Assembly (NCBI GenBank): GCA_002779055.1
Contig: PEXM01000071.1
Span: 1-12,041, forward strand
From: Elusimicrobia bacterium CG08_land_8_20_14_0_20_44_26
Lineage (GTDB): Bacteria; CG03
Length of the DNA stretch: 12,041 nt
Reading direction: 5' to 3'
The notes beneath the pieces were generated by a model. That model was not told the origin of the DNA, ran no database searches, and saw only the letters and a list, made by a program, of their open reading frames with translations. A program made the translations under genes and the position numbers. Of the stretch, positions 1 through 11,388 are shown in pieces. The stretch's first letter is position 1, and the number at the start of each line of letters is the position of its first letter.

Positions 1-1
1 C

Positions 2-2467
2 TGCGATTACGGGGATATTATAGAAGTGCATGCCGCTTTGATGATTCCGATGGAGCAGAAAAACCCCGGTGCCTTTGACTACAAGGAATATCTGAAATCA
101 ATGTTCGGCGTGTATGCCTGCATGTATCCGCGTCAGAGCGAACAGGTCAAAAAAATCGGAGAAAATCCCGGCTGGCTCCTAAAATTCGCGCTGGTCTTAA
201 AGAAGAAAATGATTTGCATAATAAAGCAGACAATTCCGCATCCGCAGTCCGCTTTTCTCGGCGGCGTGACCCTGGGAACGCGGGGAGGTGTGCCTCCGCA
301 GATGAAATTTGAGTTTCAGGCGACAGGCGTCGCTCACGTTCTTTCCGTTTCGGGTCTTCACGCCGGCTTCATCGCGGCGCTTTTTTTCATGCTCTGTCTT
401 CTGGCGAAAATCCCGCCGAGGCCGCGCTGGTTTGTGGTGACCTGCGGGCTTCTCATCTTTACACTCATAACAGGAGCGCGTCCCGCGACCGTCCGCTCGG
501 CGCTGATGTACTCGGTTATGCTTCTCTTTAACACATTCAGGTTGTCTCTTAAAACGTCAACTTCTCTTACAATTCCCGTGACGGCCGTGTTTATATTATC
601 GGGAATTATTCCGGATATCACAAGTCCGCTGCTTCTGCCTTCAGCGAGCTTTACCCTGTCGTATATGGCGGTCTGGTCGCTGTGCTATCTCACGGGGCCG
701 GTGCAGGCGTTCTTTGAGACCTATATAAAATCGTGGACATTTATCGTATTTTTCTTCTGGGTTTTTTTCTTTACAACTGTCGCCAGCGTGAATTTTGACC
801 TCTTCTATAATAAATTTTTTCTTGAAGCGGTTGCATTAACTCTAATTTTAACCTTTATTGCGGCGGGCGCGCTCAACAAAACGAAGCCACTCCTCGGCCT
901 TGCCGTGCACAAAATGCCCCCGTCTCTTTATTATCTCGTGCAGTTTTTCTACGCGCAGTTTGCCATACAGTTGGGGATGATGATACCACTCTCCGCTCTC
1001 TACTTTCACAGGTTTCCTACGGCCGGCATTTACGCAAACTTTATAGCGATTCCCCTGATAGGATTTATTGTTATGGTGGGTTTTCTCTCCGGTCTCATCG
1101 GAGCTTTTTTTTCGGCGCTCTCTCTTGCTCCGGTCGGCGCTCTCATTGCCCTTTATCTGAATGCCGGGAATTACTGGCTGTGCAATATTTTCATGGGCGT
1201 GGCTCATTTCTTTTTTAAGGCGTTCAGATATCCCTTTATGCCGACTTTCAAAACATCCTGGATGTTTTCTTATTACGCGGTGATTCTCCTCATAGTTTGT
1301 TATAAGCCGGTCCTTGAATTTTTTGCCGACGTCAGACACCGACTGAGATATCTTTCCAGAGAAGAACTGTTTATGAGATTTTCGGCTTTTGCTGCGGCGA
1401 TTCTCCTTTTCTTTCTGCTCTATAATTACAAATTCAAAAAGGAAAAGACCGAGAATTTCCGCGCGATTATATTAAACATCGGTTTCGGAAACTCAAATCT
1501 GCTCACAACTCCCGACGGAAAACACGTTCTTGTGGATACGACGCAGGCGGACGAAGGCGATTTTAATATCAGCAATCTCGCCGCGGCGTTCACTTTTTAC
1601 CAGATAGGCGGGTTTTCCGACCTCATTTTAACGAATTTAAAACCGGAAAACACGGGCAACGCCGCCGCCATTCTCCCTTACTTTCCAACGGGAAAGGTTT
1701 TCACTGCCTATAAACCGGAAGACATTCTGAAAAAAATGGCATTCCAAAAATTTCTTGATTTTCTGGGCGATGAGACGCTCAAAGAAAAATGGGACACTTC
1801 TTATGTTCAGAATCTTTACGATAATGTTTATTATATGAGAAAAGTTCCTCTGATAGCGAATAAGGATTTCAGCGAGCCCCGTGGAGCGGGAAAAATATTT
1901 TATTCAAGAAAAGGAGTGCCTCTTTATGCTGCCAAACGCGGAGACATCATTTATTCGTCGCTTTCGGGGGGAAGCGAATTTATGATAAAGGTTCTCTGGC
2001 CGGCGGAAGAGAAACTTGCCGGCACTCCCGACGACCTCGCAAATAATTCCATAGTGCTGAAAGCCACCTACGGTAAATTTTCAATGCTCATGCCCTCCGA
2101 CATAATGAACGAAGCGCAGGGAGAAATGTTGAAATATTATAAGCCGGAAGAACTCAAAAGCGACATTCTCATAGCCCCATTCCACGGCAATATGAGTGCG
2201 TGCCTTGCCGAGTGGTATGAGGCGGTGTCGCCGAAGGTTGTGATAATACCGTATTCGTATCTGAAGGGCTGGAGTTTTGCCGAGTCGGATATCAACCCGA
2301 CGCTTGAAAAATGCAGAGAACTTGGGGCGAAAGTTATGCGGTTGGACAAATACGGCGCCGTTTGCGTCACATCCGACGGCAAGAACGTCACTCTGGAAAG
2401 CGTAAAGAAACCGATAGAGGCGGGGGCCGGCGAGGCATCGCAGGAGGATTCGTCAGATGTTTTTTAG
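2..2467 (+). CDS. comEC: ComEC/Rec2-family DNA-uptake channel, 5'-truncated, with degenerate MBL domain
   Basis: ComEC forms the inner-membrane channel that carries single-stranded DNA into the cytoplasm during natural transformation. The reading frame is open to the left edge (first complete codon at base 2, reading CDYGDIIE), so the GTG at 26 is probably not the start and the N-terminal part is missing. From that GTG, residues 13-23 read NPGAFDYKEYL, the hallmark at the end of the ComEC OB-like domain (DUF4131). The Competence domain follows (about 95-440) with SVSGLHAGF and GARPATVRSALM and many hydrophobic helices. A C-terminal MBL domain starts near residue 483 (ILNIGFGNSN, then HVLVDT). 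Where active MBLs read THxHxDHxGG, this one has TNLKPENTGN (bases about 1630-1660), so the metal ligands are gone. The later FHGNMSACL block keeps an HG. It ends in TAG and a polar tail. ComEC family confidence is high; loss of MBL activity is inferred from motifs. Confidence 0.93.
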   Translation, partial: CDYGDIIEVHAALMIPMEQKNPGAFDYKEYLKSMFGVYACMYPRQSEQVKKIGENPGWLLKFALVLKKKMICIIKQTIPHPQSAFLGGVTLGTRGGVPPQMKFEFQATGVAHVLSVSGLHAGFIAALFFMLCLLAKIPPRPRWFVVTCGLLIFTLITGARPATVRSALMYSVMLLFNTFRLSLKTSTSLTIPVTAVFILSGIIPDITSPLLLPSASFTLSYMAVWSLCYLTGPVQAFFETYIKSWTFIVFFFWVFFFTTVASVNFDLFYNKFFLEAVALTLILTFIAAGALNKTKPLLGLAVHKMPPSLYYLVQFFYAQFAIQLGMMIPLSALYFHRFPTAGIYANFIAIPLIGFIVMVGFLSGLIGAFFSALSLAPVGALIALYLNAGNYWLCNIFMGVAHFFFKAFRYPFMPTFKTSWMFSYYAVILLIVCYKPVLEFFADVRHRLRYLSREELFMRFSAFAAAILLFFLLYNYKFKKEKTENFRAIILNIGFGNSNLLTTPDGKHVLVDTTQADEGDFNISNLAAAFTFYQIGGFSDLILTNLKPENTGNAAAILPYFPTGKVFTAYKPEDILKKMAFQKFLDFLGDETLKEKWDTSYVQNLYDNVYYMRKVPLIANKDFSEPRGAGKIFYSRKGVPLYAAKRGDIIYSSLSGGSEFMIKVLWPAEEKLAGTPDDLANNSIVLKATYGKFSMLMPSDIMNEAQGEMLKYYKPEELKSDILIAPFHGNMSACLAEWYEAVSPKVVIIPYSYLKGWSFAESDINPTLEKCRELGAKVMRLDKYGAVCVTSDGKNVTLESVKKPIEAGAGEASQEDSSDVF

Positions 2468-2471
2468 CGGG

Positions 2472-2580
2472 ACCCCCTCTCTCTCCCCCTTTACAAGGAG
2501 GAGAAGCGAAGCCGAAGGTGCGCTGTGGCGTGCAGAGGGGGTACTCTCCGCCTATGGCGGAAGAAGTCCGAAGGCAGGGG
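2472..2580. repeat. Intergenic palindromic (MITE/REP-like) repeat
   Basis: This non-coding spacer separates comEC from the helicase-like gene. It starts with ACCCCCTCT (2472-2480), whose exact inverted copy AGAGGGGGT lies at 2534-2542, giving 9-bp terminal inverted repeats around about 53 bases. A second hairpin follows, TCCGCC-TAT-GGCGGA (2547-2561). The segment ends in a GCAGGGG tract that also lies at ribosome-site distance from the GTG at 2586. Its C-rich, purine-rich make-up is unlike the coding DNA around it and resembles small dispersed palindromes in many bacterial genomes. Copy number cannot be judged from one window. Confidence 0.6.
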
Positions 2581-2585
2581 TATAA

Positions 2586-4310
2586 GTGAAATTCAGCGAA
2601 CTTGATTTCAATATACAGCACGTTCTGAATCGGATTTTTTCGCCCACCGGTTTAACCGCTGGAATTACGGAATTTTTAGATAGCAGGAACCTTTCATCGT
2701 CCGACTGGGAACTTGTTTCAAAAACGCTTGAAAATATAGAGAATGAAAAACTGAATATTATAATTGAATCTCTTTTGGGACGGGTTGTCTTCGGCGACAT
2801 ACCGGCCGGCGGAGGAGGAACGGAAACTTTGCTCCGGGCGGCTCTTTTAAAGATTCTCGCAGGTTGCGCCCCGCAGGAGGTGCTCTTTCTTGTTTCTTTT
2901 GAAAATCAGACGCAGGAGATAAAAAATAAAATGCTTGAACTTACACCTTCCAAGAAAAGCGAGATTGAGCGGATAAATTTTTCAACGGCAAGCATGTTTT
3001 TGGAAAATGTTCTCAAGGAAAAGGCGGAAGACCAATCCCTTCTTGTGCGTCTGGGCATGGCCGAAAATTTCTCTTATTCTTCAAGATGGATGGAACTTCT
3101 CGCCGAAGAGCGAAACGGCGTAAATATGAGCGTATATTTCTGGATGGTGCTTCATAGAAAACTTACAGGGTCGCTTACTTCTGTGCCCGAAGAACTTAGA
3201 GAAGACACGGAAGAGGTGTTCCGCTCTTATGAGGTTTCTCTGGAGAATAGATGTTTGTTTGACAGGGTCGGAATGTGCAATCTTATACGGAGATTTTATG
3301 ATTTTGATAAAGAGTTTTTAATAAAACATTTTGCGAAATTCAGCGCCATTTTTGTTGATAACGGCGAGCGGTATCTTCCGGGGGAATGGCCGATTCTAAG
3401 AATATTTTCCAAAAACGGCGTTCTCGCCGTCTGCGGCGATTTTTCTATTTCATTCTACACGCCCAAAGACGTTCAACTGGGCGTTGAGTTTAGAACTTTT
3501 ACTCTTTCAAATACATTCCGGCATTCGCCGTCCGTCATAGAGTGCCTGTCAAATCTTTCGGGCAGAAATATTGTCTCGCAGAATTCCGTTAGTGATACCG
3601 GTTTTGTCTATTATGAAGCGAAAGACGTGCAGGATGAACTTGAATTTATCGCGTTTGAGATTAAACAATTGATATTGAGGGGAATGGGGGCGTCAAAAAT
3701 AGGAATCATTTATAGCAGTGGAGATTTCCCAGTAAAGTTCAGTCAGCCGGCTTTGAAATCCGGTATAGACTGCCTTGAATATCCGTCCTCCGACTCTATT
3801 ATACCGCTCGCGGAAAAACTGCTGGAAATCATAGAAAAAAATCCCGGCGCATCCACAATGGAGATTTTAAGGAAAAATCTCAGTGCTGCGGAGGTGCTTC
3901 GCGTGAGCGCCTGGTTTGAAAGACACCTGCGAAAGTTCGGTCCCTACGAGGCAATCAGCAGAAGGAACAATGTTATCCTTGAAGATATAAGGAAATTAAA
4001 GGAAAGAGCGCCTTTTTCAGTGAAGATTGTAGCGGAATATTTCGCTAATGCGTATCAGTTTGACGCCGTATTTCTACCCGATTTTGAAGAAGGCACATAC
4101 ACCGGAAATATGAAGAGCATTTTTTATAAAGTCACATCCCGCGCCGCTTCCTGCGTTTTTATCACGAGGCCTCTGGTGAGAGAGGCGTTGTATTACTGGC
4201 AGAAACCGTTTGAGCCGTCGCCGTCGAAGTTAGTGGCTTTTTTCCCGTCGGGAGCGAGCAAAGGAAGCGATCGCGGTCCTGTAAAAAGGCTGCTCAAAAA
4301 ACTGTTTTGA
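2586..4310 (+). CDS. UvrD/RecB-like SF1A helicase-fold protein, catalytically degenerate
   Basis: The 574-residue protein keeps the order of UvrD/RecB/AddB helicase motifs but not their chemistry. Motif I is AGGGGTET (74-81): the expected AGxGxGKT has lost its lysine to Glu80. Motif Ia is EVLFLVSFENQTQEIKNKML (98-117), matching the usual LxxTFTNKAAxEM. Motif II is FVDNGE (256-261), where helicases have VDExQD, so the catalytic Glu is Asn259. Motif III is CGDFSISFY (283-291), without its Gln. Motif IV keeps NTFR (309-312). Motif V near 483-504 lacks the THxAKGLE residues but keeps FDAVFLPDFEEG. Motif VI is FYKVTSRA (513-520) with Arg519. It should not hydrolyse ATP as a canonical helicase does, so a structural or DNA-binding role, like the inactive helicase half of AddB, is likelier. 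It starts with GTG behind AGGGG; no better start is seen. The next gene begins 4 bases after its TGA. Confidence 0.8.
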   Translation: MKFSELDFNIQHVLNRIFSPTGLTAGITEFLDSRNLSSSDWELVSKTLENIENEKLNIIIESLLGRVVFGDIPAGGGGTETLLRAALLKILAGCAPQEVLFLVSFENQTQEIKNKMLELTPSKKSEIERINFSTASMFLENVLKEKAEDQSLLVRLGMAENFSYSSRWMELLAEERNGVNMSVYFWMVLHRKLTGSLTSVPEELREDTEEVFRSYEVSLENRCLFDRVGMCNLIRRFYDFDKEFLIKHFAKFSAIFVDNGERYLPGEWPILRIFSKNGVLAVCGDFSISFYTPKDVQLGVEFRTFTLSNTFRHSPSVIECLSNLSGRNIVSQNSVSDTGFVYYEAKDVQDELEFIAFEIKQLILRGMGASKIGIIYSSGDFPVKFSQPALKSGIDCLEYPSSDSIIPLAEKLLEIIEKNPGASTMEILRKNLSAAEVLRVSAWFERHLRKFGPYEAISRRNNVILEDIRKLKERAPFSVKIVAEYFANAYQFDAVFLPDFEEGTYTGNMKSIFYKVTSRAASCVFITRPLVREALYYWQKPFEPSPSKLVAFFPSGASKGSDRGPVKRLLKKLF

Positions 4311-4314
4311 AAAT

Positions 4315-5322
4315 ATGTTTATAGAAGAATACAAACGTCATAAGAAAGACCAGGCGAGGGCTTTCGCAAAAATGAGGTCAGCCGCGCAAGTTGTCCATCC
4401 TTTTGTCGTCCTTGCCCTGTCCTGCGCCGCGGCGCTTGCGGTATTCACCGCAGTAAAAGCGGGAAAAGGAAAAAAGATGGATGTTTCGCGGCCTCTTCTT
4501 GTAGTTAATCTTTTTAATGTCGGCGGCGGAAACGCGATGCTTGTGGAAACGCCGTCCCGAAAAACCATTCTGATAGATTCGGGACCGGCGGTTCCGAAAA
4601 ACTCTGATGAGTCGTCTCAATTCTCCCTCGCCGAAGGGAGAATTGTCTGGAAAGACATCATAAAGCCGTATCTAACGAGAACAAATATTAAAGAGATAAC
4701 CTCTCTGGTTCTCACATCCCCCGAGAGCGGTTATTGCGGCGGGGCGAGTGAGATTTTATCCGATAATTTCCCCGTCGGAGAAGTCGTCGCTTCAAACACA
4801 TATTTTCCGGGTCCGAGATTCCGCGATTTCAGGAACGTTAAAGAGGCGGCGGAAAAGAGGGGAATTTTGAAAAAAGTTTCAAAAGGGGATGTCATTTTCA
4901 AAGGAGGAGGGGTTTCCATGCAGGTTCTCGGACCCCTTATAGATTATGCCGGATTTGAGGATTTTTCCAAAAACGCCTCTCTTGTTTTGAGGATCGTCTA
5001 CGGGGATACCGCTCTTATATACTGTTCTGCCGCCGGGCTTTCGGAACTCAATCACATCGCCTCGTATGAAGGTCTTGCTTCCGATGTTCTCGTCGTTGCG
5101 GATCACTGCTCAGGCGCTTCCTTCTCTATTTCCTTTATAGAGGAAGCGGAGCCGAAAATTTGCCTAATTTCCGTCGGCCGGGGTAATAAGGAAGAATATC
5201 CCGATTCAAAAGCGCTTATGTTTTTTGATGCGATGCGCATAAAACATTATAGAACCGACTTAAACGGCACGCTCACCGTTTCTTCGGACGGAAACGTGGT
5301 TGCTGTAAAAAAGGAATATTAA
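4315..5322 (+). CDS. Membrane-anchored stand-alone ComEC-type MBL domain, metal site lost
   Basis: The 335-residue protein has a basic N-terminus, one membrane helix (about 28-48) and then an MBL domain of the ComEC C-terminal type: LLVVNLFNVGGGNAMLVETP (61-80), KTILIDSG (83-90), LVLTSPESGYCGG (131-143). The last block aligns without gaps to LTHPHxDHxGG, and all four ligands are replaced (Ser135, Glu137, Gly139, Tyr140). The later block, VADHCSGASFSISFIEE (261-277), matches the HHGSxxS region with one His kept, and ISVGRGN fits ISVGxxN. It ends with the TDLNGTLTVSSDGN strand pair typical of ComEC C-termini. It is therefore a free-standing copy of the soluble domain of ComEC, outside the channel polypeptide. 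ATG at 4315 lies 4 bases after the upstream TGA with a weak ribosome site, which suggests coupling. Hydrolase activity is unlikely; the role is unknown. Confidence 0.8.
   Translation: MFIEEYKRHKKDQARAFAKMRSAAQVVHPFVVLALSCAAALAVFTAVKAGKGKKMDVSRPLLVVNLFNVGGGNAMLVETPSRKTILIDSGPAVPKNSDESSQFSLAEGRIVWKDIIKPYLTRTNIKEITSLVLTSPESGYCGGASEILSDNFPVGEVVASNTYFPGPRFRDFRNVKEAAEKRGILKKVSKGDVIFKGGGVSMQVLGPLIDYAGFEDFSKNASLVLRIVYGDTALIYCSAAGLSELNHIASYEGLASDVLVVADHCSGASFSISFIEEAEPKICLISVGRGNKEEYPDSKALMFFDAMRIKHYRTDLNGTLTVSSDGNVVAVKKEY
4618..4645. other. Perfect 11-bp hairpin inside a coding sequence
   Basis: CAATTCTCCCT (4618-4628) and its exact inverse AGGGAGAATTG (4635-4645) flank a 6-base loop, CGCCGA. The hairpin lies in the MBL gene and encodes part of SQFSLAEGRIVW, a segment of variable length in this family. 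There is no T-run behind it, so it is not a standard intrinsic terminator. It could be an RNA processing or stability element, or the trace of a small palindrome inserted in frame. Confidence 0.6.
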
Positions 5323-5325
5323 AGT

Positions 5326-7074
5326 ATGAAGGACATTATTAAAAAAATGCTTGCCGCATTGAGGTTCGCAGGGGCTCTCTCTAAAAAACTTCTTGCAGTA
5401 TTCAGAAGCGTCGGTCCTCTCTCAGTGGGGAAGATAAACGCTTATCTTACCTGCCCGATGAAATATAAATACCAGTATCTTGCGCGCAGAAAAAGCCGGA
5501 TAAAATCTCATTATCTTTCTTTTGCCGGAAGTATTCAAACCTCCATAGAGGCGATTCACTCATCTGATTTAGCGGAAATATCAGAAGAGGAAATATTTGA
5601 AATACTGAAATCAAACTGGAAGAGAGAGGGCTTTACGGGCTCGGAACAGGAGGACAGCTTCTGGATGTTGGGTCTTAAAATTCTTGTGGATTATGTCGGT
5701 AAAAACAGGTTTTACAAAAACACGGTTGTCGCTACAAACGAGAATGTGTCGGGCAAGTTTGCGGGCTTTATTTTTAACGCCAGATTCTCGCAGGTCGCAA
5801 GAAACGCCGACCGTAAAATAGAGGTCGTGCAGTTTAAAACGGGAAAAAGATTACAGAAAGAAGAGTCGCTCAAGAGCGACCTTCAGAGCGTTGTGAATTA
5901 TTGTCTTGCGAAAGAGAAGTGGGGCCGCAAATTTGAATCTTATTCGGTTTACAATCTTTATCACGGTATCAAAATAAAAGTTGAACCGACAGAAAAAGAT
6001 ATACGGAATTGCGAAGATATCGTGCGGAGTGAGGCAAGAAAAATCAAGCTGGGGTCATTTGACGCCGAACAGGGGCCGCTCTGTTCGTGGTGCGATTTCG
6101 CGTCGGTGTGCCCCGCGAGAAAAAAGCTTCCCGACCCGCGCATATACAAGAGGGTTCTTGAAAGCAAGCGCCTCGCGCTTTCTTACTCAAAATTTTCCGT
6201 TTATAAGAACTGTCCGAGAAATTACAAAAGGATTTATATAGATAAAATTGCGACAAAGCCCAGATATTTTTTTTCCATAGGTCTGACGATACACAAAACG
6301 ATGGAAGACATATACACTTATAGCGGCTTCGCGACGCCTTCCTTAAAATATCTTCTTTCAAGATACAGAAAAAACTGGGTGGGGCAGGGTTACGAAAGTG
6401 AAGAGCAGGAAACAAACTACAGAGATGAGGGAGCCAGATGGCTTGAGAATTATTATAAAAAACACCTTGCTGGCGGCGGGTGGAAGAGAGCGTGGAAAGT
6501 TGAACCTTATTTTGAAGTGCCTCTACAGGGAAGAAACATAGGAGCGGGACATCTCCTCGTCGGATTTATTGACAGAATTGAGCAAAATTCAGACGGGTCC
6601 TACACCATTTACGATTACAAGACCGATCCGCTTATGAGAACTCAGGAGGATGTTGATGGCGACTTGCAATTGACGATGTATTACTGGGTGTGCGAGAAAT
6701 ATTTTGACATCAGGATAAGGGAACTCGCTCTCATATTTTTCAGATTTAATGAAATTGTCAGGACCAGCAGAAGCCGGGAAGATACGGACAAGATGCTTGA
6801 TATGGTCAACCGCTTGGGCGCTGAAATAATACTTAATTTTGAGTCGGCGGAAGGTCTTCCGAAAGAGGAGGCGGACTCTTATTTCCCGCCGAAGATAAAC
6901 AAATACTGCGGCGGCTGTGATTTTCTTAATGACTGTCCGCTAAAGGATGAAATACTGAAAATGGACAGTTCAAAGGTTATGAATGTTACGGATGACCTTA
7001 AAGTGAATGACGGGGAACTGGGACCCGATGAAGTCAACGCCCAGCTTTTGAAGTTTGAAAAGAAGAAAAAATAA
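5326..7074 (+). CDS. Tandem PD-(D/E)XK (RecB/AddB/Cas4-type) Fe-S nuclease, first copy dead and second intact
   Basis: The 582-residue protein is an internal duplication of the RecB-family exonuclease domain (PDDEXK_1/COG2887). Copy 1 covers about 30-265: LSVGKINAYLTCP with Cys43, then Cys253, Cys256 and Cys262 (CSWCDFASVCP). Copy 2 covers about 285-540: LSYSKFSVYKNCP with Cys296, then Cys528, Cys531 and Cys537 (CGGCDFLNDCP). Both have the one-upstream, CX2CX5C-downstream pattern of AddB/Cas4 4Fe-4S nucleases. Copy 2 has the full active site: His323, Asp416 (GFIDRI), Asp430 and Lys432 (YDYKT), then Gln448 (DLQLTMYY). Copy 1 has Gln71 for the His, GFIF for GFID, and VVQFKTGK with Gln169 for the Asp, keeping only the Lys and Gln motif; it should be inactive. 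The likely role is cutting or trimming DNA with the neighbouring helicase-like protein. AAGGA at 5311-5315 sits 10 bases before the ATG, within the end of the previous gene. Confidence 0.88.
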   Translation: MKDIIKKMLAALRFAGALSKKLLAVFRSVGPLSVGKINAYLTCPMKYKYQYLARRKSRIKSHYLSFAGSIQTSIEAIHSSDLAEISEEEIFEILKSNWKREGFTGSEQEDSFWMLGLKILVDYVGKNRFYKNTVVATNENVSGKFAGFIFNARFSQVARNADRKIEVVQFKTGKRLQKEESLKSDLQSVVNYCLAKEKWGRKFESYSVYNLYHGIKIKVEPTEKDIRNCEDIVRSEARKIKLGSFDAEQGPLCSWCDFASVCPARKKLPDPRIYKRVLESKRLALSYSKFSVYKNCPRNYKRIYIDKIATKPRYFFSIGLTIHKTMEDIYTYSGFATPSLKYLLSRYRKNWVGQGYESEEQETNYRDEGARWLENYYKKHLAGGGWKRAWKVEPYFEVPLQGRNIGAGHLLVGFIDRIEQNSDGSYTIYDYKTDPLMRTQEDVDGDLQLTMYYWVCEKYFDIRIRELALIFFRFNEIVRTSRSREDTDKMLDMVNRLGAEIILNFESAEGLPKEEADSYFPPKINKYCGGCDFLNDCPLKDEILKMDSSKVMNVTDDLKVNDGELGPDEVNAQLLKFEKKKK

Positions 7075-7092
7075 AGATTAAGGGGGGGTATT

Positions 7093-7635
7093 ATGGCTAA
7101 AAATGTAAGAAGGAGACTGCTTGTAAAAAAGGAACTTCAGTTTAAACTCGCCGCCATACAGGTTTTTTCAATGCTTCTTGTGGCTGCGACGTGTCTTGTC
7201 ACCTACAAAATACTGATTGATTTCGTCACTCTGAACTTAAAGCACGGCCAGGAGCTGGAAAATTTCATCAGGGGGCTATCCCAAACGCTCACGGGGCAGC
7301 TGATTGTGCTTTTGGTAATAGGGGCTTCCGTGAGCTTTCTTGTCTCAAACCGGATTTTGGGGCCGGTTTACCGGCTTGAAAAAGACATAGATATTATTTT
7401 ATCCGACGTTGAACAACGGATATCAAAAAGGATAAAAGTCCGCAAAGGAGATGAAATTCTCTCTCTTGTTGACGCTGTCAACAAACTTCTTGACAGTTTT
7501 GAGGATATTTACGAAAAGAACAGGAATTTGAAACTGACGGTAAAAAACAGGATTGACGGCGCGAAAGACAAGTTCGGCGCATCTAAAGAGGTAATGGATT
7601 TTATTTCGGATCTGGAAAAATCAATAGAAGATTGA
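7093..7635 (+). CDS. Two-helix HAMP-domain membrane protein without output domain
   Basis: The 180-residue protein has a basic start, a first membrane helix (about 18-44), only about 22 residues outside the membrane, a second helix (about 67-86) and a HAMP-like segment starting at SNRILGPVYRLEKDID (85-100) and running to about 140. A charged, coiled-coil-prone tail (140-180) follows. HAMP domains relay motion from membrane sensors to kinases, cyclases or chemotaxis signalling domains, but no such domain is present. It may relay to a separate partner or serve as a membrane scaffold. The start is well supported: a run of seven G (7082-7088) lies 4 bases before ATG. The spacing to the nuclease gene is 18 bases, so it is probably in the same transcript. 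A link to DNA uptake rests on position only. Confidence 0.78.
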   Translation: MAKNVRRRLLVKKELQFKLAAIQVFSMLLVAATCLVTYKILIDFVTLNLKHGQELENFIRGLSQTLTGQLIVLLVIGASVSFLVSNRILGPVYRLEKDIDIILSDVEQRISKRIKVRKGDEILSLVDAVNKLLDSFEDIYEKNRNLKLTVKNRIDGAKDKFGASKEVMDFISDLEKSIED

Positions 7636-7644
7636 CTTGAAGTT

Positions 7645-8070
7645 TTGAACGAAAAGCGGACTCTGACAAAAGGGAAATTTATTTTTTTTCTGCTGCTTGT
7701 TGCGGCAATCGGTTTTCTGTGGCTGAAATTCGAGAAAGATATAAGAAGTTTGTTTGCCAGAAGCAAAAAAACGGTTAAAGAATCGCCGCGCAGGGCGGAG
7801 AAGAAAAAAATATCGTGCTACATAACCGGCGAAGTGCGCAGGGAAGGCATTTATCATTTTCCCGAGGGTTCAAGCGTGAAAGATCTTGTGCAGGCCGCGG
7901 GAGGACTCACGGATAAAGCCGATGACGCCTCTGTCAATTTATCAATGCCTCTTACGGACTGTCAGACGATAAATGTCCCGAAAAAATCATTTTTCAGGCG
8001 GCTTGGACTCGGCCGCGCTCCGGAGAAAACTTATTTCATACCCCCTATGGAAATCAGGGAAGAAAAGTAG
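7645..8070 (+). CDS. Membrane-anchored SLBB protein resembling the N-terminal part of ComEA
   Basis: The 141-residue protein has one membrane helix (about 11-28), a basic linker, and an SLBB domain (57-112): CYITGEVRREGIYHFPEGS, then VKDLVQAAGGLTDKADDAS, then VNLSMPLTDCQTINVP. This matches the soluble ligand-binding part of ComEA, including the AGGxTxxAD and NLxxxLxDxxxIxVP signatures. ComEA normally continues into a helix-hairpin-helix DNA-binding domain, but here only a short basic tail follows (residues 113-141), so the usual DNA contact is missing. The only start in frame after the preceding TGA is TTG at 7645, with no clear ribosome site. The HAMP gene ends in the same frame 9 bases earlier, so coupling or low-level read-through is possible. 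The following gene is comEC, the classic partner of comEA. Domain identity is firm; the competence role is inference. Confidence 0.8.
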   Translation: MNEKRTLTKGKFIFFLLLVAAIGFLWLKFEKDIRSLFARSKKTVKESPRRAEKKKISCYITGEVRREGIYHFPEGSSVKDLVQAAGGLTDKADDASVNLSMPLTDCQTINVPKKSFFRRLGLGRAPEKTYFIPPMEIREEK

Positions 8071-8083
8071 AAATCAGGTATGA

Positions 8084-8139
8084 AAATCCCCCTTTGTATT
8101 CCCCCCTTTTTTAAAAAGGGGGGAAATTAGGGGGGATTT
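8084..8139. repeat. Nested palindromic intergenic repeat
   Basis: Outer arms AAATCCCCC (8084-8092) and GGGGGATTT (8131-8139) enclose inner arms CCCCCCTTTTT (8101-8111) and AAAAAGGGGGG (8113-8123), giving a long near-perfect fold. It fills the spacer between the SLBB gene and comEC2, ends 4 bases before the ATG, and its G6 run (8130-8135) lies at ribosome-site distance. It looks like a dispersed REP/MITE-type element. The inner stem has an A-run rather than a T-run after it on the + strand, so a forward terminator role is doubtful. Confidence 0.65.
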
Positions 8140-8143
8140 ACAG

Positions 8144-10216
8144 ATGAAAAATAAAATTCCCCCGATATATCTTGTCACAATTTTTTATATTCTCGGAATC
8201 ACAGCGCAGTTTCACCGCGCGTATTTTTTATTTCCTTTGACGGCGTTTCTCGCGTTTTTTTCCGCCCGGAAAATGGTCTGGAAAGCGTTTTTCTTTCTTG
8301 TTTTTCTGTTTGGATTTTTCTATACGGGCAGGCGCTTGATAGCGCTTCCCGATGCGTCCCCCGCCGTTAATATAAAAATAGAAGGCGAAGTGAGAGGTCT
8401 GCCCGCGGGCGGAAAATTCATACTGAAAACAAGTTCAGGGTCTTTCGCCGTCTATGTGAAGGAAGACGTTCTCAAGAAAAAAACGGCGGTTCTGCCTTCT
8501 CCTGGCGATAAAGTGATGATTGAAGGGAAAATTCTCATACCGGATGAGAAAAGAAATTTTTCCTCAACTGATTGGCGGAGTATTAACGCCGTAAACGGTA
8601 TCAGCGGAAGAATATTCGCGTCCAAACTTAAAATAATGTCATCCGGAGGCGGTTTTTGGCAAGCGGTATTCCGCGTGAGAAAGATCCTTGAGAAAAAAAT
8701 GGCCACCTCTTTTCATCCATCTGTCCTCGCATACCTGATGGGTTTTATATGGGGAGACAAATCCGGTCTCACCAGTGAGATAATGATTGCTTTCAGGCGC
8801 ACGGGTTTGATGCATCTTCTCGCGGTGAGCGGCCTTCACGTCGGCCTTTTTGCTTCCGTTTTCGTTGTTTTTATTTCTTTTGTTACGGGGGTTCGCAGGG
8901 CTCTTCTCATAAGCATACCGTTCGCTTTTTTCTATTCGTTTCTCTGCGGCGTCTCTCCCAGCAGCGTCCGCGCGGCGGTGATGTTCGCTTTTTTATCCGC
9001 CGGATTATATTCGGGAAGAAGGGGTTCCCTCGGCAGCGGTCTTTTCGCCGCGGCGCTCATTATGCTTATTGTAAATCCGATGTGGCTTTTTGCCGTCGGT
9101 TTCAAACTTTCTTTTCTTGCGGCGGGCGGCATAATATTTTTTTCTCCTGTGCTTACGAAAATTTTTAAACATTTTATGCCGAATTTCTTCGCCGAATCCT
9201 TTTCAATCGGCATCTCTTGCCAGTTGTTCATTCTGCCGGCGCTTAATGAAACATTTTTTGAAATTTCCGTGATTACGCCGTTTATAAATATTTTTGTTCT
9301 GCCTCTCGCGGGAGGAATTGTCTTTTCGGTTTTTCTTTTTTTTATAATGTCTCTTGTTTCCGCCGTTGCATTGACCGCACCGGTTTTTCTTTTTCTTTCA
9401 CGTATTTTTGCCTCTGCCGCTTCTTTTTTTGTAACGCTTCTCGGCGTGATTCTCAAAACGACTTCGTCCTGTCCTTTTGCGATGGCTTCCATCGGTCATT
9501 TCCCTCTTTATGTTTATTTGGCTTTTTATGCCGTTCTTTTTGCGATTATCTCAAAGAAACGCAGGTTTATTTTTTCCTCTCTCGGGATTTTTGCCGCAAG
9601 CGTTTTTTATCTGGCCGCCTCAAGAATGCAGTTCAAAGTTTATGTCCCTTATTTCGGCGCGGGCGACTGCGTTTTTTTTACATCGCGCGGCAAATGGTTC
9701 CAGGCGGGCACAGCATCCGATGTAGGAGGGAATCTTCCCGAAGAATACAAAAGATTCGTGAAATATCACGGGATAAAAAAAATCGAGGGCTGTTTTATTC
9801 TGAGTCCTTCCATATATCATCTCGGCGCTTTTGACGAACTCCTGAAGGCGGGTTTGGTTAAAAAATTTTATTTGAGGGTGGGTATGCCGATGACAAACGA
9901 ATTTGAACACATACTTTACGCGGGCGGCGGGAAGAACATTTTCAGGGATTTCAAGGACAAAGTCGTTCTGGGCGGTGTGACGTTTTCTCTTTCGGGCGAG
10001 GCGATGAAAGCGGAAAGAAACGGACGAACCGCCGTTTACTCATTCGGTGAAGACACAAATCCCGGGCCCTGCGATGTATTCATAGGCGACGTATACGAGC
10101 GCTGTAAATACTGGGTGATTCCCCAGCTTGAAAAAAGAGAGGTCGTCTTCACTCTCTCGGGAAAAGTGAAAAAGAAAACGGCAGTTTCTCTACACTGTCA
10201 ACATATAACTACCTAA
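8144..10216 (+). CDS. comEC: Second ComEC/Rec2-family channel protein with degenerate MBL domain
   Basis: The 690-residue protein has the full ComEC layout: N-terminal membrane helices (about 8-62), an OB-like domain (75-160) with PGDKVMIEGKI and RNFSSTDWRSI in place of NPGxFDYxxYL, then the Competence domain (about 190-490) with GLMHLLAVSGLHVGL (221-235) and GVSPSSVRAAVM (269-280), and a C-terminal MBL-like domain from about 497 (VYVPYFGAGDCVFFTS). Its metal-motif region is FILSPSIYHLGAF (551-563), keeping at most one His and no DH pair. It is clearly divergent from the ComEC at the left edge, so this is an old paralogue rather than a recent copy. The final residues (SLHCQHITT) do not look like a ComEC end, and a better end lies in another frame (see 10174-10296). 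ATG at 8144 directly follows the palindrome. Confidence 0.92.
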   Translation: MKNKIPPIYLVTIFYILGITAQFHRAYFLFPLTAFLAFFSARKMVWKAFFFLVFLFGFFYTGRRLIALPDASPAVNIKIEGEVRGLPAGGKFILKTSSGSFAVYVKEDVLKKKTAVLPSPGDKVMIEGKILIPDEKRNFSSTDWRSINAVNGISGRIFASKLKIMSSGGGFWQAVFRVRKILEKKMATSFHPSVLAYLMGFIWGDKSGLTSEIMIAFRRTGLMHLLAVSGLHVGLFASVFVVFISFVTGVRRALLISIPFAFFYSFLCGVSPSSVRAAVMFAFLSAGLYSGRRGSLGSGLFAAALIMLIVNPMWLFAVGFKLSFLAAGGIIFFSPVLTKIFKHFMPNFFAESFSIGISCQLFILPALNETFFEISVITPFINIFVLPLAGGIVFSVFLFFIMSLVSAVALTAPVFLFLSRIFASAASFFVTLLGVILKTTSSCPFAMASIGHFPLYVYLAFYAVLFAIISKKRRFIFSSLGIFAASVFYLAASRMQFKVYVPYFGAGDCVFFTSRGKWFQAGTASDVGGNLPEEYKRFVKYHGIKKIEGCFILSPSIYHLGAFDELLKAGLVKKFYLRVGMPMTNEFEHILYAGGGKNIFRDFKDKVVLGGVTFSLSGEAMKAERNGRTAVYSFGEDTNPGPCDVFIGDVYERCKYWVIPQLEKREVVFTLSGKVKKKTAVSLHCQHITT

Positions 10217-10296
10217 CCGAAGCGGGAATTATTGACATTTCAAATGAAAATGTTATAATTGCCAAAGTATGGCAGAAATCAAATTGTTACAGATAA
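10174..10296 (+). pseudogene. Probable out-of-frame C-terminal tail of comEC2
   Basis: In the frame one base back from comEC2, sequence without stops reads into TYNYLTEAGIIDISNENV and ends at TAA 10294-10296. It resembles the last strand pair of the two other MBL-type proteins here: YRTDLNGTLTVSSDGNVVAV in the 4315-5322 protein and LDKYGAVCVTSDGKNV in the left ComEC. One base missing from the A-rich run around 10168-10178 would join the frames. A true mutation, a homopolymer read error and a chance open frame all remain possible. It overlaps the promoter and first codons of the recombinase. Confidence 0.4.
10232..10259 (+). promoter_or_regulatory. Consensus sigma-70 promoter of the recombinase, near-leaderless
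   Basis: TTGACA (10232-10237) and TATAAT (10254-10259), both perfect consensus boxes, are separated by 16 bases. Initiation 6-8 bases after the -10 box would fall at about 10265-10267, directly before the ATG at 10269, so the message would have almost no leader. No Shine-Dalgarno sequence precedes that ATG. The same bases may encode the shifted tail of comEC2, so chance resemblance cannot be excluded. Confidence 0.6.
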
Positions 10297-11388
10297 CCCC
10301 TCATGAAATTAAAGTAACTTTTTCATATGAACCGTCTCTGGTTAATCTTATCCGCAGTATTCCCAGCCGTAAATGGTATAATGATAAAAAATTCTGGACA
10401 ATACCCTGTGCACCTGAAGCATTGAATCAGTTTCTTGCCACTTTTTCAGGACATAAAATTGAAATTGATAATGAATTAAAAAAACTTCAGTCGCAATATG
10501 AACACCTTCCTTCCAGTGACTCCCGTAAGGGATTAAAAGACAGACGTTCTATTCCCCGCACCCCGGCAACTGACCGCAGGCATGCCGACCTCATTAATTA
10601 CCTTGTCCGCCAGCTCCGAATAAGAAAATACAGCCCGAAAACGATAAAACTCTATAAGAACATACTTCTGGATTTTGCTGACTACACAAAACGGCCATTA
10701 AGCCAGGTGTGCCGCGAAAACATAGACCTTTATCTTTCTTATAATGCGGAAGCAAAAAATGTGTCCGCATCGCGCATGAACCAAATAATCAGCGCGCTCA
10801 AATTCCTATACGGCGAATTGTTCGGGGAACACCTCGTCATTAAGAATATAAAAAGACCACGCAACGACAGGAAACTCCCGAGCATATTAAACCATGAAGA
10901 CATCGTAATAATCTTCAATCATGTTTATAATCTAAAACATAAACTTGCGCTACAGATTATGTATTCTTCGGGGCTCAGAGTTTCAGAAGCTGTCCGGCTA
11001 AAGGTGCGGGACATAGATATGAAAAATATGACCGTCTTTGTCCGCGGATGCAAGGGCAGGAAAGACAGAGTTTCCATCTTGTCCGCCAAATTGGCAGAAC
11101 CATTGAACAAAATTATGATAAATAAACAAACTGAATCATATCTTTTTGATGGAGAAATGTGCGGAAAGCATTTATCGGAACGAGCAGTGCAACATGTATT
11201 CCAGAATGCATTGGCAATCTCAAGAATAAAGAAGCATGCCTCCTGCCACTCTTTGAGACACAGTTTTGCAACACACCTGCTTGAATCCGGTGTGGATATC
11301 AGATACATTCAGGAGTTATTAGGGCATTATTCGGATTTATATGCATGTTAGAAAACAGGGCTTGGCAAAGATTGAAAGCCCTTTGTAA
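10269..11388 (+). pseudogene. Tyrosine recombinase with HARP-like N-terminal module, frameshifted before the catalytic Tyr
   Basis: This gene encodes a XerC/XerD-type site-specific recombinase. The uninterrupted frame gives 360 residues to TAG at 11351. Residues about 15-65 (IRSIPSRKWYNDKKFWTIP) resemble a HARP module; 105-190 is the SAM-like core-binding domain; 205-355 is the catalytic domain with Arg237 (SSGLRVSE), Lys262, HSLRH (His327, Arg330) and LLGH (His353). After GHYS the frame breaks into DLYAC and stop. One frame over, bases 11332-11388 read RIYMHVRKQGLAKIESPL and stop, the expected IYxHV end with the nucleophile Tyr at 11338-11340. Against the usual GHxSxKTTxIYTHV, about 14 bases are missing (any loss of 3n+2 would fit). 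The break removes the Tyr from the reading frame, so the enzyme is probably dead. It lacks the extra IntI domain, so it is not an integron integrase. Codon use is more AT-rich than upstream. Confidence 0.85.
11357..11382. other. Stem-loop at the 3' end of the recombinase
   Basis: AGGGCTT (11357-11363) pairs with AAGCCCT (11376-11382) across a 12-base loop, in the last codons of the displaced recombinase tail. It could act as a weak terminator or an element end, but the T-run is poor (TTTG) and the loop is long. Confidence 0.25.

Follow-up and report, generated by a model that had tools for sequence, protein, structure and literature searches.

What keeps proteins with lost active sites in place beside a DNA-import channel, and which of them would still cut DNA? 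The MBL domain of ComEC acts as a nuclease (PMC5031224, PMC8579336, PMC12455585), almost half of the ComECs in sequenced genomes have no MBL domain, and how the second strand is removed in those cases is described as an open question (PMC8579336). Gains and losses of ComEC domains, with rare SLBB co-occurrence, have also been described (PMC6299819). The window analysed here, a stretch of 12,041 bp that makes up an entire contig (G000:C69) of a 715-kb draft genome (64% complete), encodes two ComEC paralogues and a tandem nuclease in one cluster in which most catalytic modules appear dead.

Gene content of the cluster

Seven genes, all on the + strand, form the cluster: comEC1, a UvrD-like gene, an MBL gene, the nuclease gene, a HAMP-like gene, an SLBB gene and comEC2. 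Base 1 of the window is base 1 of the contig, so that comEC1 is truncated at its 5′ end. Gaps of 4, 3, 18 and 9 bases separate the middle genes, with larger gaps between comEC1 and the helicase gene (118 bases) and between the SLBB gene and comEC2 (73 bases). The original prediction had placed the genes on one strand with middle gaps of 3-18 bases; we recovered this layout and found all genes at the stated coordinates. The features are as follows.

1..2467 (+): comEC1, with a Competence channel domain and a degenerate C-terminal MBL domain, 5′ end missing at the contig edge (Pfam/NCBIfam; MBL motif II; ComEC1 clade)
2586..4310 (+): UvrD/PcrA-like pseudo-helicase, 574 aa (weak UvrD match; motif losses; dN/dS)
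4315..5322 (+): free-standing ComEC-type MBL protein, 335 aa, one N-terminal TM helix (NCBIfam; motif reading)
5326..7074 (+): tandem PD-(D/E)XK nuclease, whole gene, 582 aa, predicted Fe-S (PDDEXK_1)
5413..6129 (+): nuclease copy 1, catalytic residues lost, four Cys kept (alignment; dN/dS)
6175..6960 (+): nuclease copy 2, H / GFID / YDYK / QLxxY intact, four Cys kept (alignment)
7093..7635 (+): two-TM protein with a HAMP-like region below cut-off, 180 aa (sub-threshold HAMP; hydropathy)
7645..8070 (+): single-TM SLBB protein, ComEA_MAG0490-like, 141 aa (SLBB; 35 bits vs cut-off 98)
8144..10216 (+): comEC2, with a DUF4131-like region below cut-off, a Competence channel and a short degenerate MBL remnant

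The Competence domain (PF03772) matched the two window ComECs with 122.9 and 163.8 bits against a cut-off of 23, while the TIGR00361 equivalog cut-off of 190.05 was not reached (144.1 and 95.7 bits, ComEC1 being truncated in the window). A full-length counterpart of ComEC1, a 992-aa frame, is found in locus L015. Among the smaller proteins, the free MBL protein matched the ComEC-type MBL of NCBIfam, the nuclease PDDEXK_1 of Pfam and the 141-aa protein SLBB in Pfam/NCBIfam; the HAMP match stayed sub-threshold. Against ComEA_MAG0490, the SLBB protein scored 35 bits in the window and 50 bits in G008.

From their kinship, the MBL and SLBB proteins are expected on the periplasmic side and the nuclease and pseudo-helicase on the cytoplasmic side; the flank charges of the MBL and SLBB proteins gave no settled topology. 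In the window nuclease, hydropathy gave no TM helix and inspection by eye no signal peptide, and the N-terminus is basic and amphipathic; the pseudo-helicase has a basic amphipathic C-terminus and one borderline hydrophobic stretch. These two termini are basic and amphipathic in most homologues scored, without always being the protein's top-scoring stretch, so membrane docking through them is put forward as a suggestion.

Around these genes, the spacer between comEC1 and the pseudo-helicase gene (2468-2585) contains a C-rich stretch, CCCCCTCTCTCTCCCCC..., that may be a dispersed repeat or a terminator. Downstream of comEC2 lies a tyrosine recombinase gene (10232-11351, 360 aa, XerA/integron-integrase-like), preceded by a perfect TTGACA-N16-TATAAT with a TG extension; its frame stops just past the LLGH region, and the usual C-terminal block looks cut short. 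The recombinase had no match in L010-L015, of which mainly L011 and L012 extend beyond comEC2. A last gene leaves the contig at 11583-12041 and encodes a TusA-like domain; it also matches MbdU, a double selenoprotein, in the N-terminal part of the latter.

Active sites of the MBL, helicase and nuclease modules

The original prediction held that the helicase, all three MBL domains and one nuclease copy lack catalytic residues, and motif reading bore this out for each of them. Motif II of the ComEC MBL is HxDxDH (PMC12455585); we took HxHxDH or HxDxDH as canonical. At this position, ComEC1 of the window reads TNLKPENTGN and the free MBL protein TSPESGYCGG, the latter having also lost the GD Asp and HHGS, while the shortened tail of ComEC2 contains no motif II. 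The metal-ligand set HxDxDH / GD / HHGS was accordingly found in none of the three. The MBL domain of ComEC1 appears to be dead.

The protein encoded at 2586-4310 is, by profile comparison, akin to the UvrD/Rep SF1 helicase fold. Its Pfam UvrD match lies below the cut-off (18.6 versus 23 bits), and its own profile matched PcrA and UvrD chains among PDB sequences with E about 1e-6. The residues that define such helicases, the Walker A Lys and the DExQ motif, are both lost: GxGKT is replaced by GGGGTE and DEYQ by DNGE, with the motif II Glu/Gln and the motif III Gln gone and the motif IV Arg kept. Among the aligned homologues, the Walker A Lys is absent in 8 of 8 and motif II is altered in 7 of 8, P0008 retaining DEGQ. 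A search of 61 genomes found the pseudo-helicase in six, all of the window's own family (6 of its 7 genomes).

In the same family, we read a separate intact UvrD in G002 and G003 and helicase-nuclease pairs in G003 and G006. Because separate helicases are encoded in these genomes, the pseudo-helicase is probably no general repair part. For G000 no UvrD match was found, which the 64% completeness may explain. An origin of the pseudo-helicase from the cells' own helicase-nuclease pair gave no clear parent among the best profile scores (39.6 bits for an active UvrD-plus-nuclease chain, 39.0 for a plain UvrD), and a UvrD gene near ComEC1 in L177 was rejected as its ancestor, being an ordinary UvrD by Pfam. 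Loci L209, L210, L211, L212 and L218 hold adjoining pairs of AdnAB/AddAB-like helicase-nuclease proteins of 839-1015 aa; Walker A is intact in one partner, while the second partner of four of the five pairs returned no match to this motif.

In the tandem nuclease of the window, copy 1 has lost the H, the D and the Asp of DxK and retains its four Cys; copy 2 retains all of them. The four conserved Cys per copy lead us to predict Fe-S clusters. Across the nuclease alignment, H, D, DxK and Q of copy 2 are kept in 31 of 31 rows, while at least one catalytic residue of copy 1 is missing in 16 of 30 readable rows, nine in the window's clade and seven elsewhere, some of the seven differing by one residue (for example G091 and G254). 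Each of the 30 readable rows retains all four copy-1 Cys. A nuclease tree, calculated without the partial G010 (the split nuclease of G011 was not tabulated either), joins the nine window-clade rows, from seven family genomes and two metagenome proteins, with 100/100 support and places them next to two metagenome proteins whose copy 1 is intact. The state of copy 1 changed at least five times on this tree.

Some relatives have a different architecture. The nucleases at L090:7939-11469 and L096:1026-4631 (1177 and 1202 aa), both adjoining ComEC1, carry about 490 aa between the two nuclease parts. We rejected a helicase remnant for this insert, which had no Pfam match and, for the L090 protein, no PDB match; it looks like an unrelated domain. 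A single 725-aa frame at L092:3-2177 contains three PD-(D/E)XK stretches, and copy 1 of the G191 protein passes TIGR00372 (70.3 versus 65).

Gene order and selection in the window's family

Six of the seven family genomes share one gene order, comEC1, pseudo-helicase, MBL, nuclease, HAMP, SLBB, comEC2; contig ends truncate comEC genes in several of these six loci. In the seventh, G006, the cluster is split across contigs and runs in order from MBL to comEC2. Homologues come from genomes named as Elusimicrobia or Omnitrophota MAGs. The same arrangement is found in four genera whose proteins are 39-69% identical to those of the window, and so is not due to chance.

We calculated pairwise Nei-Gojobori dN/dS among G002, G004, G005 and G006 with our own script. 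Every whole gene gave values of 0.07-0.27 among these four same-family genomes, approximate figures since most pairs have a dS of around 1 or higher. For the pair G005-G002, with dS of about 0.07-0.15, dN/dS was 0.10-0.27 (comEC2, 0.21 at a dS of 0.38). The degenerate genes are no exception: the pseudo-helicase gave 0.12-0.16 and the free MBL 0.13-0.27, and the dead copy 1 of the nuclease (0.03-0.07) compares with 0.07-0.16 for copy 2. For the window's own pairs synonymous sites are saturated (pS 0.66-0.81), with pN well below pS (0.19-0.41). The original prediction had named conserved order and purifying selection as signs of a system. Both were observed, the low dN/dS of the degenerate genes coming from same-family genomes, since the window's own pairs are saturated. 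Together with the open frames, they uphold the view that selection acts on structure and that the genes are not decaying.

History within the phylum

Among the nine phylum genomes outside the family, six (G008, G009, G010, G011, G012, G014) carry the cluster at least in part, often split by contig ends, with comEC1, nuclease, MBL, HAMP, SLBB and comEC2 and no helicase gene. G007 has comEC1 only; in G015, a piece of comEC1 and comEC2 lie at the ends of contigs. In G013 (97% complete) we found neither a Competence domain nor a tandem nuclease; its DprA, T2SSE ATPase and secretin genes are nonetheless present, an apparent joint loss. DprA, T2SSE ATPases and secretin occur in all 16 phylum genomes.

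The free MBL protein is intact in none of the seven family genomes and in all five of the other phylum genomes read (G008-G012). All four other phylum genomes whose copy 1 was fully read (G008, G009, G012, G014) likewise have this part of the nuclease intact. Both losses are therefore derived in the window's family: copy 1 and the free MBL most likely degenerated in its line, where the pseudo-helicase most likely appeared.

The free MBLs outside the window's family were intact in 11 of 11 cases in a first set and 0 of 2 in a second (11 of 13 in total). The two exceptions come from genomes with no tandem-nuclease match, and compensation is thus no strict rule. In addition, each of 14 phylum genomes read (G010 and G012 left out), the window's family included, encodes a ComEC-type MBL with intact motif II at one locus outside the cluster, which means that strand degradation may be supplied in trans. 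Most of these proteins (L191-L201, L203, L204, L206) have a signal-like N-terminus by eye; the one in G007 is 793 aa long, and those of G009 and G014 lie on the comEC1 contig, about 11-12 kb away.

A ComEC1 subfamily within and beyond the phylum

In a quick tree of 83 rows, the ComEC1 proteins of the phylum and a number of outside ComECs form one clade (22 rows, SH-aLRT 98) that spans phyla and is separate from 40 control ComECs. Its outside members are nuclease-adjoining ComECs and other long ComECs of such genomes. Full motif II occurs in 0 of 22 ComEC1 rows compared with 33 of 40 controls (30 if Gln is disallowed at the third place), the controls being MBL-rich and not random, as they were chosen among the best Competence matches with mostly frames >750 aa. 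At E 1e-90, a ComEC1 profile matched 29 of 386 genomes. A fresh check of eight previously unused ComEC1 proteins found motif II in 0 of 7 readable sequences, so that the full motif is absent in 29 of 29 readable clade members of both sets, not counting the comEC1 fragments without MBL region (L055, L248). The MBLs of L088 and L175 retain part of the ligands. By these motif readings, a degenerate MBL domain marks the ComEC1 subfamily, also outside the phylum.

The nuclease profile matched 99 of the 386 genomes at E 1e-15 or better, most matches covering one copy only. Thirteen tandem genomes were read from this listing (G120, G256 and G383: a shorter form of about 485 aa). ComEC1 was present in 11 of 13 outside tandem-nuclease genomes versus 5 of 357 others (Fisher p about 9e-16, relatedness uncorrected), where the 11 may be inflated by a ComEC1 profile built partly from tandem-nuclease genomes and misses are possible because only the best three nuclease and best two ComEC1 candidates per genome were scored. 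Independently of the ComEC1 profile, at least two Competence matches were found in 8 of 10 tandem-nuclease genomes versus 8 of 360 (Fisher p about 7e-11, relatedness uncorrected).

Of 12 outside genomes whose nuclease contig was read, five have the nuclease within three genes of a ComEC1-type gene (G191, G044, G326, G246, G091) and seven do not; two of the five clusters also hold an HhH ComEA and a free MBL. An HhH ComEA adjoins ComEC1 in G246, G091, G191, G044, G326, G133 and G362, and a profile of our own placed one near ComEC1 in 5 of 8 fresh loci, which supports a role in DNA uptake. Overall, ComEA, free MBL or tandem nuclease lie within about three genes of comEC1 in 10 of 14 outside loci, six of the 20 outside ComEC1 loci having been set aside as biased, since they were found via the nuclease.

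Discussion

Parts of the cluster resemble known systems. Like ComEC/Rec2 (TIGR00361), it has the Competence domain and an MBL-derived C-terminus in genomes with T4P ATPase, secretin and DprA genes; unlike it, the cluster contains two ComEC paralogues, every MBL is degenerate and ComEC1 belongs to a separate clade. The short SLBB protein recalls ComEA_MAG0490, ComEA-like per its NCBIfam description, but scores below the family cut-off. Cas4 shares a PD-(D/E)XK core with a Cys cluster, whereas the window nuclease is tandem and reaches 29.5 bits against the TIGR00372 cut-off of 65; no cas genes were found among the window's genes, the other loci being only partly annotated. AddB carries an Fe-S PD-(D/E)XK nuclease. 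AddB and RecC also have an inactive UvrD-type helicase fold (PMC4824097), but in the window the helicase-fold and nuclease parts, one chain in AddB, are encoded by separate genes, the nuclease has two copies, no AddA lies in the cluster, and addB_alphas gave 18.8 bits versus 486.5, so that no AddB was recognised. In Streptococcus pneumoniae, the ComEC MBL is degenerate and a separate nuclease, EndA, is used (PMC8579336, PMC12455585); the window candidate differs in being a tandem PD-(D/E)XK nuclease that lacks a TM helix and is clustered with ComEC. A dead-MBL ComEC subfamily linked to a tandem PD-(D/E)XK nuclease was not described in the literature searched, which excluded most subscription papers.

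We favour a heteromeric ComEC complex for DNA import at the inner membrane, in which nuclease work would have passed to partner proteins and, in this family, to a single cytoplasmic nuclease, with copy 2 as the sole live nuclease site and the pseudoenzymes as a DNA-guiding scaffold, a reading to which we give about even credence. It builds on computed order, selection within the family, residue losses and kinship and on the T4P ATPase, secretin and DprA genes of these genomes, to which we add the physical complex, its substrate, polarity and topology and the Fe-S clusters as what we infer. ComEC2 and its dead-MBL paralogue ComEC1 would form or share the channel, and the anchored SLBB protein would be a ComEA-like DNA receptor. 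The anchored MBL protein, which in sister lineages looks like an active nuclease, would no longer cut but guide the DNA or part its strands at the mouth of the channel; an inactive ComEC MBL has been suggested to guide transported DNA (Silale 2021, PMC8579336), and a pin loop in the ComEC MBL has been proposed as a strand separator (PMC12455585). On the cytoplasmic face, the tandem nuclease, possibly tethered to the membrane through its basic amphipathic N-terminus and the HAMP-like protein, would use copy 2 alone to trim or degrade the strand as it comes in. The ssDNA may be bound and positioned by copy 1 and the pseudo-helicase, on the model of AddB and RecC, whose inactive helicase domains scan ssDNA (PMC4824097).

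Several other explanations address the same data. The decay of remnants would account for the many lost active sites, but is scarcely credible with frames open at 39-69% identity, dN/dS of 0.07-0.27 in the family and conserved order. We also regard an anti-phage defence system as very improbable: weak Cas4 profile matches to the nuclease and LmuA/RTasMBL/Avs1a matches to the free MBL of G008 point that way, yet the proteins scanned contained no complete system and the context is one of ComEC and ComEA. That a repair nuclease and the pseudo-helicase are merely co-transcribed with com genes gains from their UvrD/AddB/Cas4 kinship, from the restriction of the pseudo-helicase to one family among 61 genomes and from the 7 of 12 outside nucleases not beside ComEC. 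Given the recurrence of nuclease-ComEC1 adjacency outside the phylum, and the separate intact UvrD (G002, G003) and helicase-nuclease pairs (G003, G006) of the family, a shared transcript of this kind seems decidedly improbable.

The remaining two concern the duty of the nuclease. Import could be nutritional, with copy 2 fully degrading DNA at the channel exit and no recombination. The intact nuclease encoded alongside channel genes would fit, but DprA, which belongs to the recombination route, is present in 16 of 16 genomes, though it occurs widely; we judge this quite unlikely. Alternatively, the tandem nuclease might replace the MBL and destroy the non-imported strand, like EndA of Streptococcus pneumoniae. 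Tandem-nuclease genomes do tend toward ComECs without intact MBL: this holds for both ComECs in the phylum where readable and for the best-scoring ComEC of 8 of 10 outside genomes, three of these proteins being too short for the domain (436-507 aa). However, the discarded strand lies outside and the nuclease has neither TM helix nor signal peptide, 11 of the 13 free MBLs from relatives beyond the family are intact, and Fe-S clusters are usually cytoplasmic, which makes an EndA-like role unlikely.

Returning to the heteromeric import complex, its wider form can be put tentatively. ComEC1 would be a widespread pseudoenzyme subfamily of ComEC and one half of a heteromeric translocon, whose nuclease duty falls to interchangeable partners, either a free MBL or a tandem Fe-S PD-(D/E)XK protein or the two together. 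One live active site would be left in the window's family, where a domesticated pseudo-helicase would guide or inspect the incoming strand; we hold this broader view possible, somewhat short of probable. The presence of a recognisable degenerate-MBL ComEC subfamily with linked candidate nucleases makes the second-strand question testable. Moreover, the lineages form a graded series, from sister lineages in which the free MBL and both nuclease copies are intact to the window's family with one active site left, which allows structural and catalytic roles of the same proteins to be told apart.
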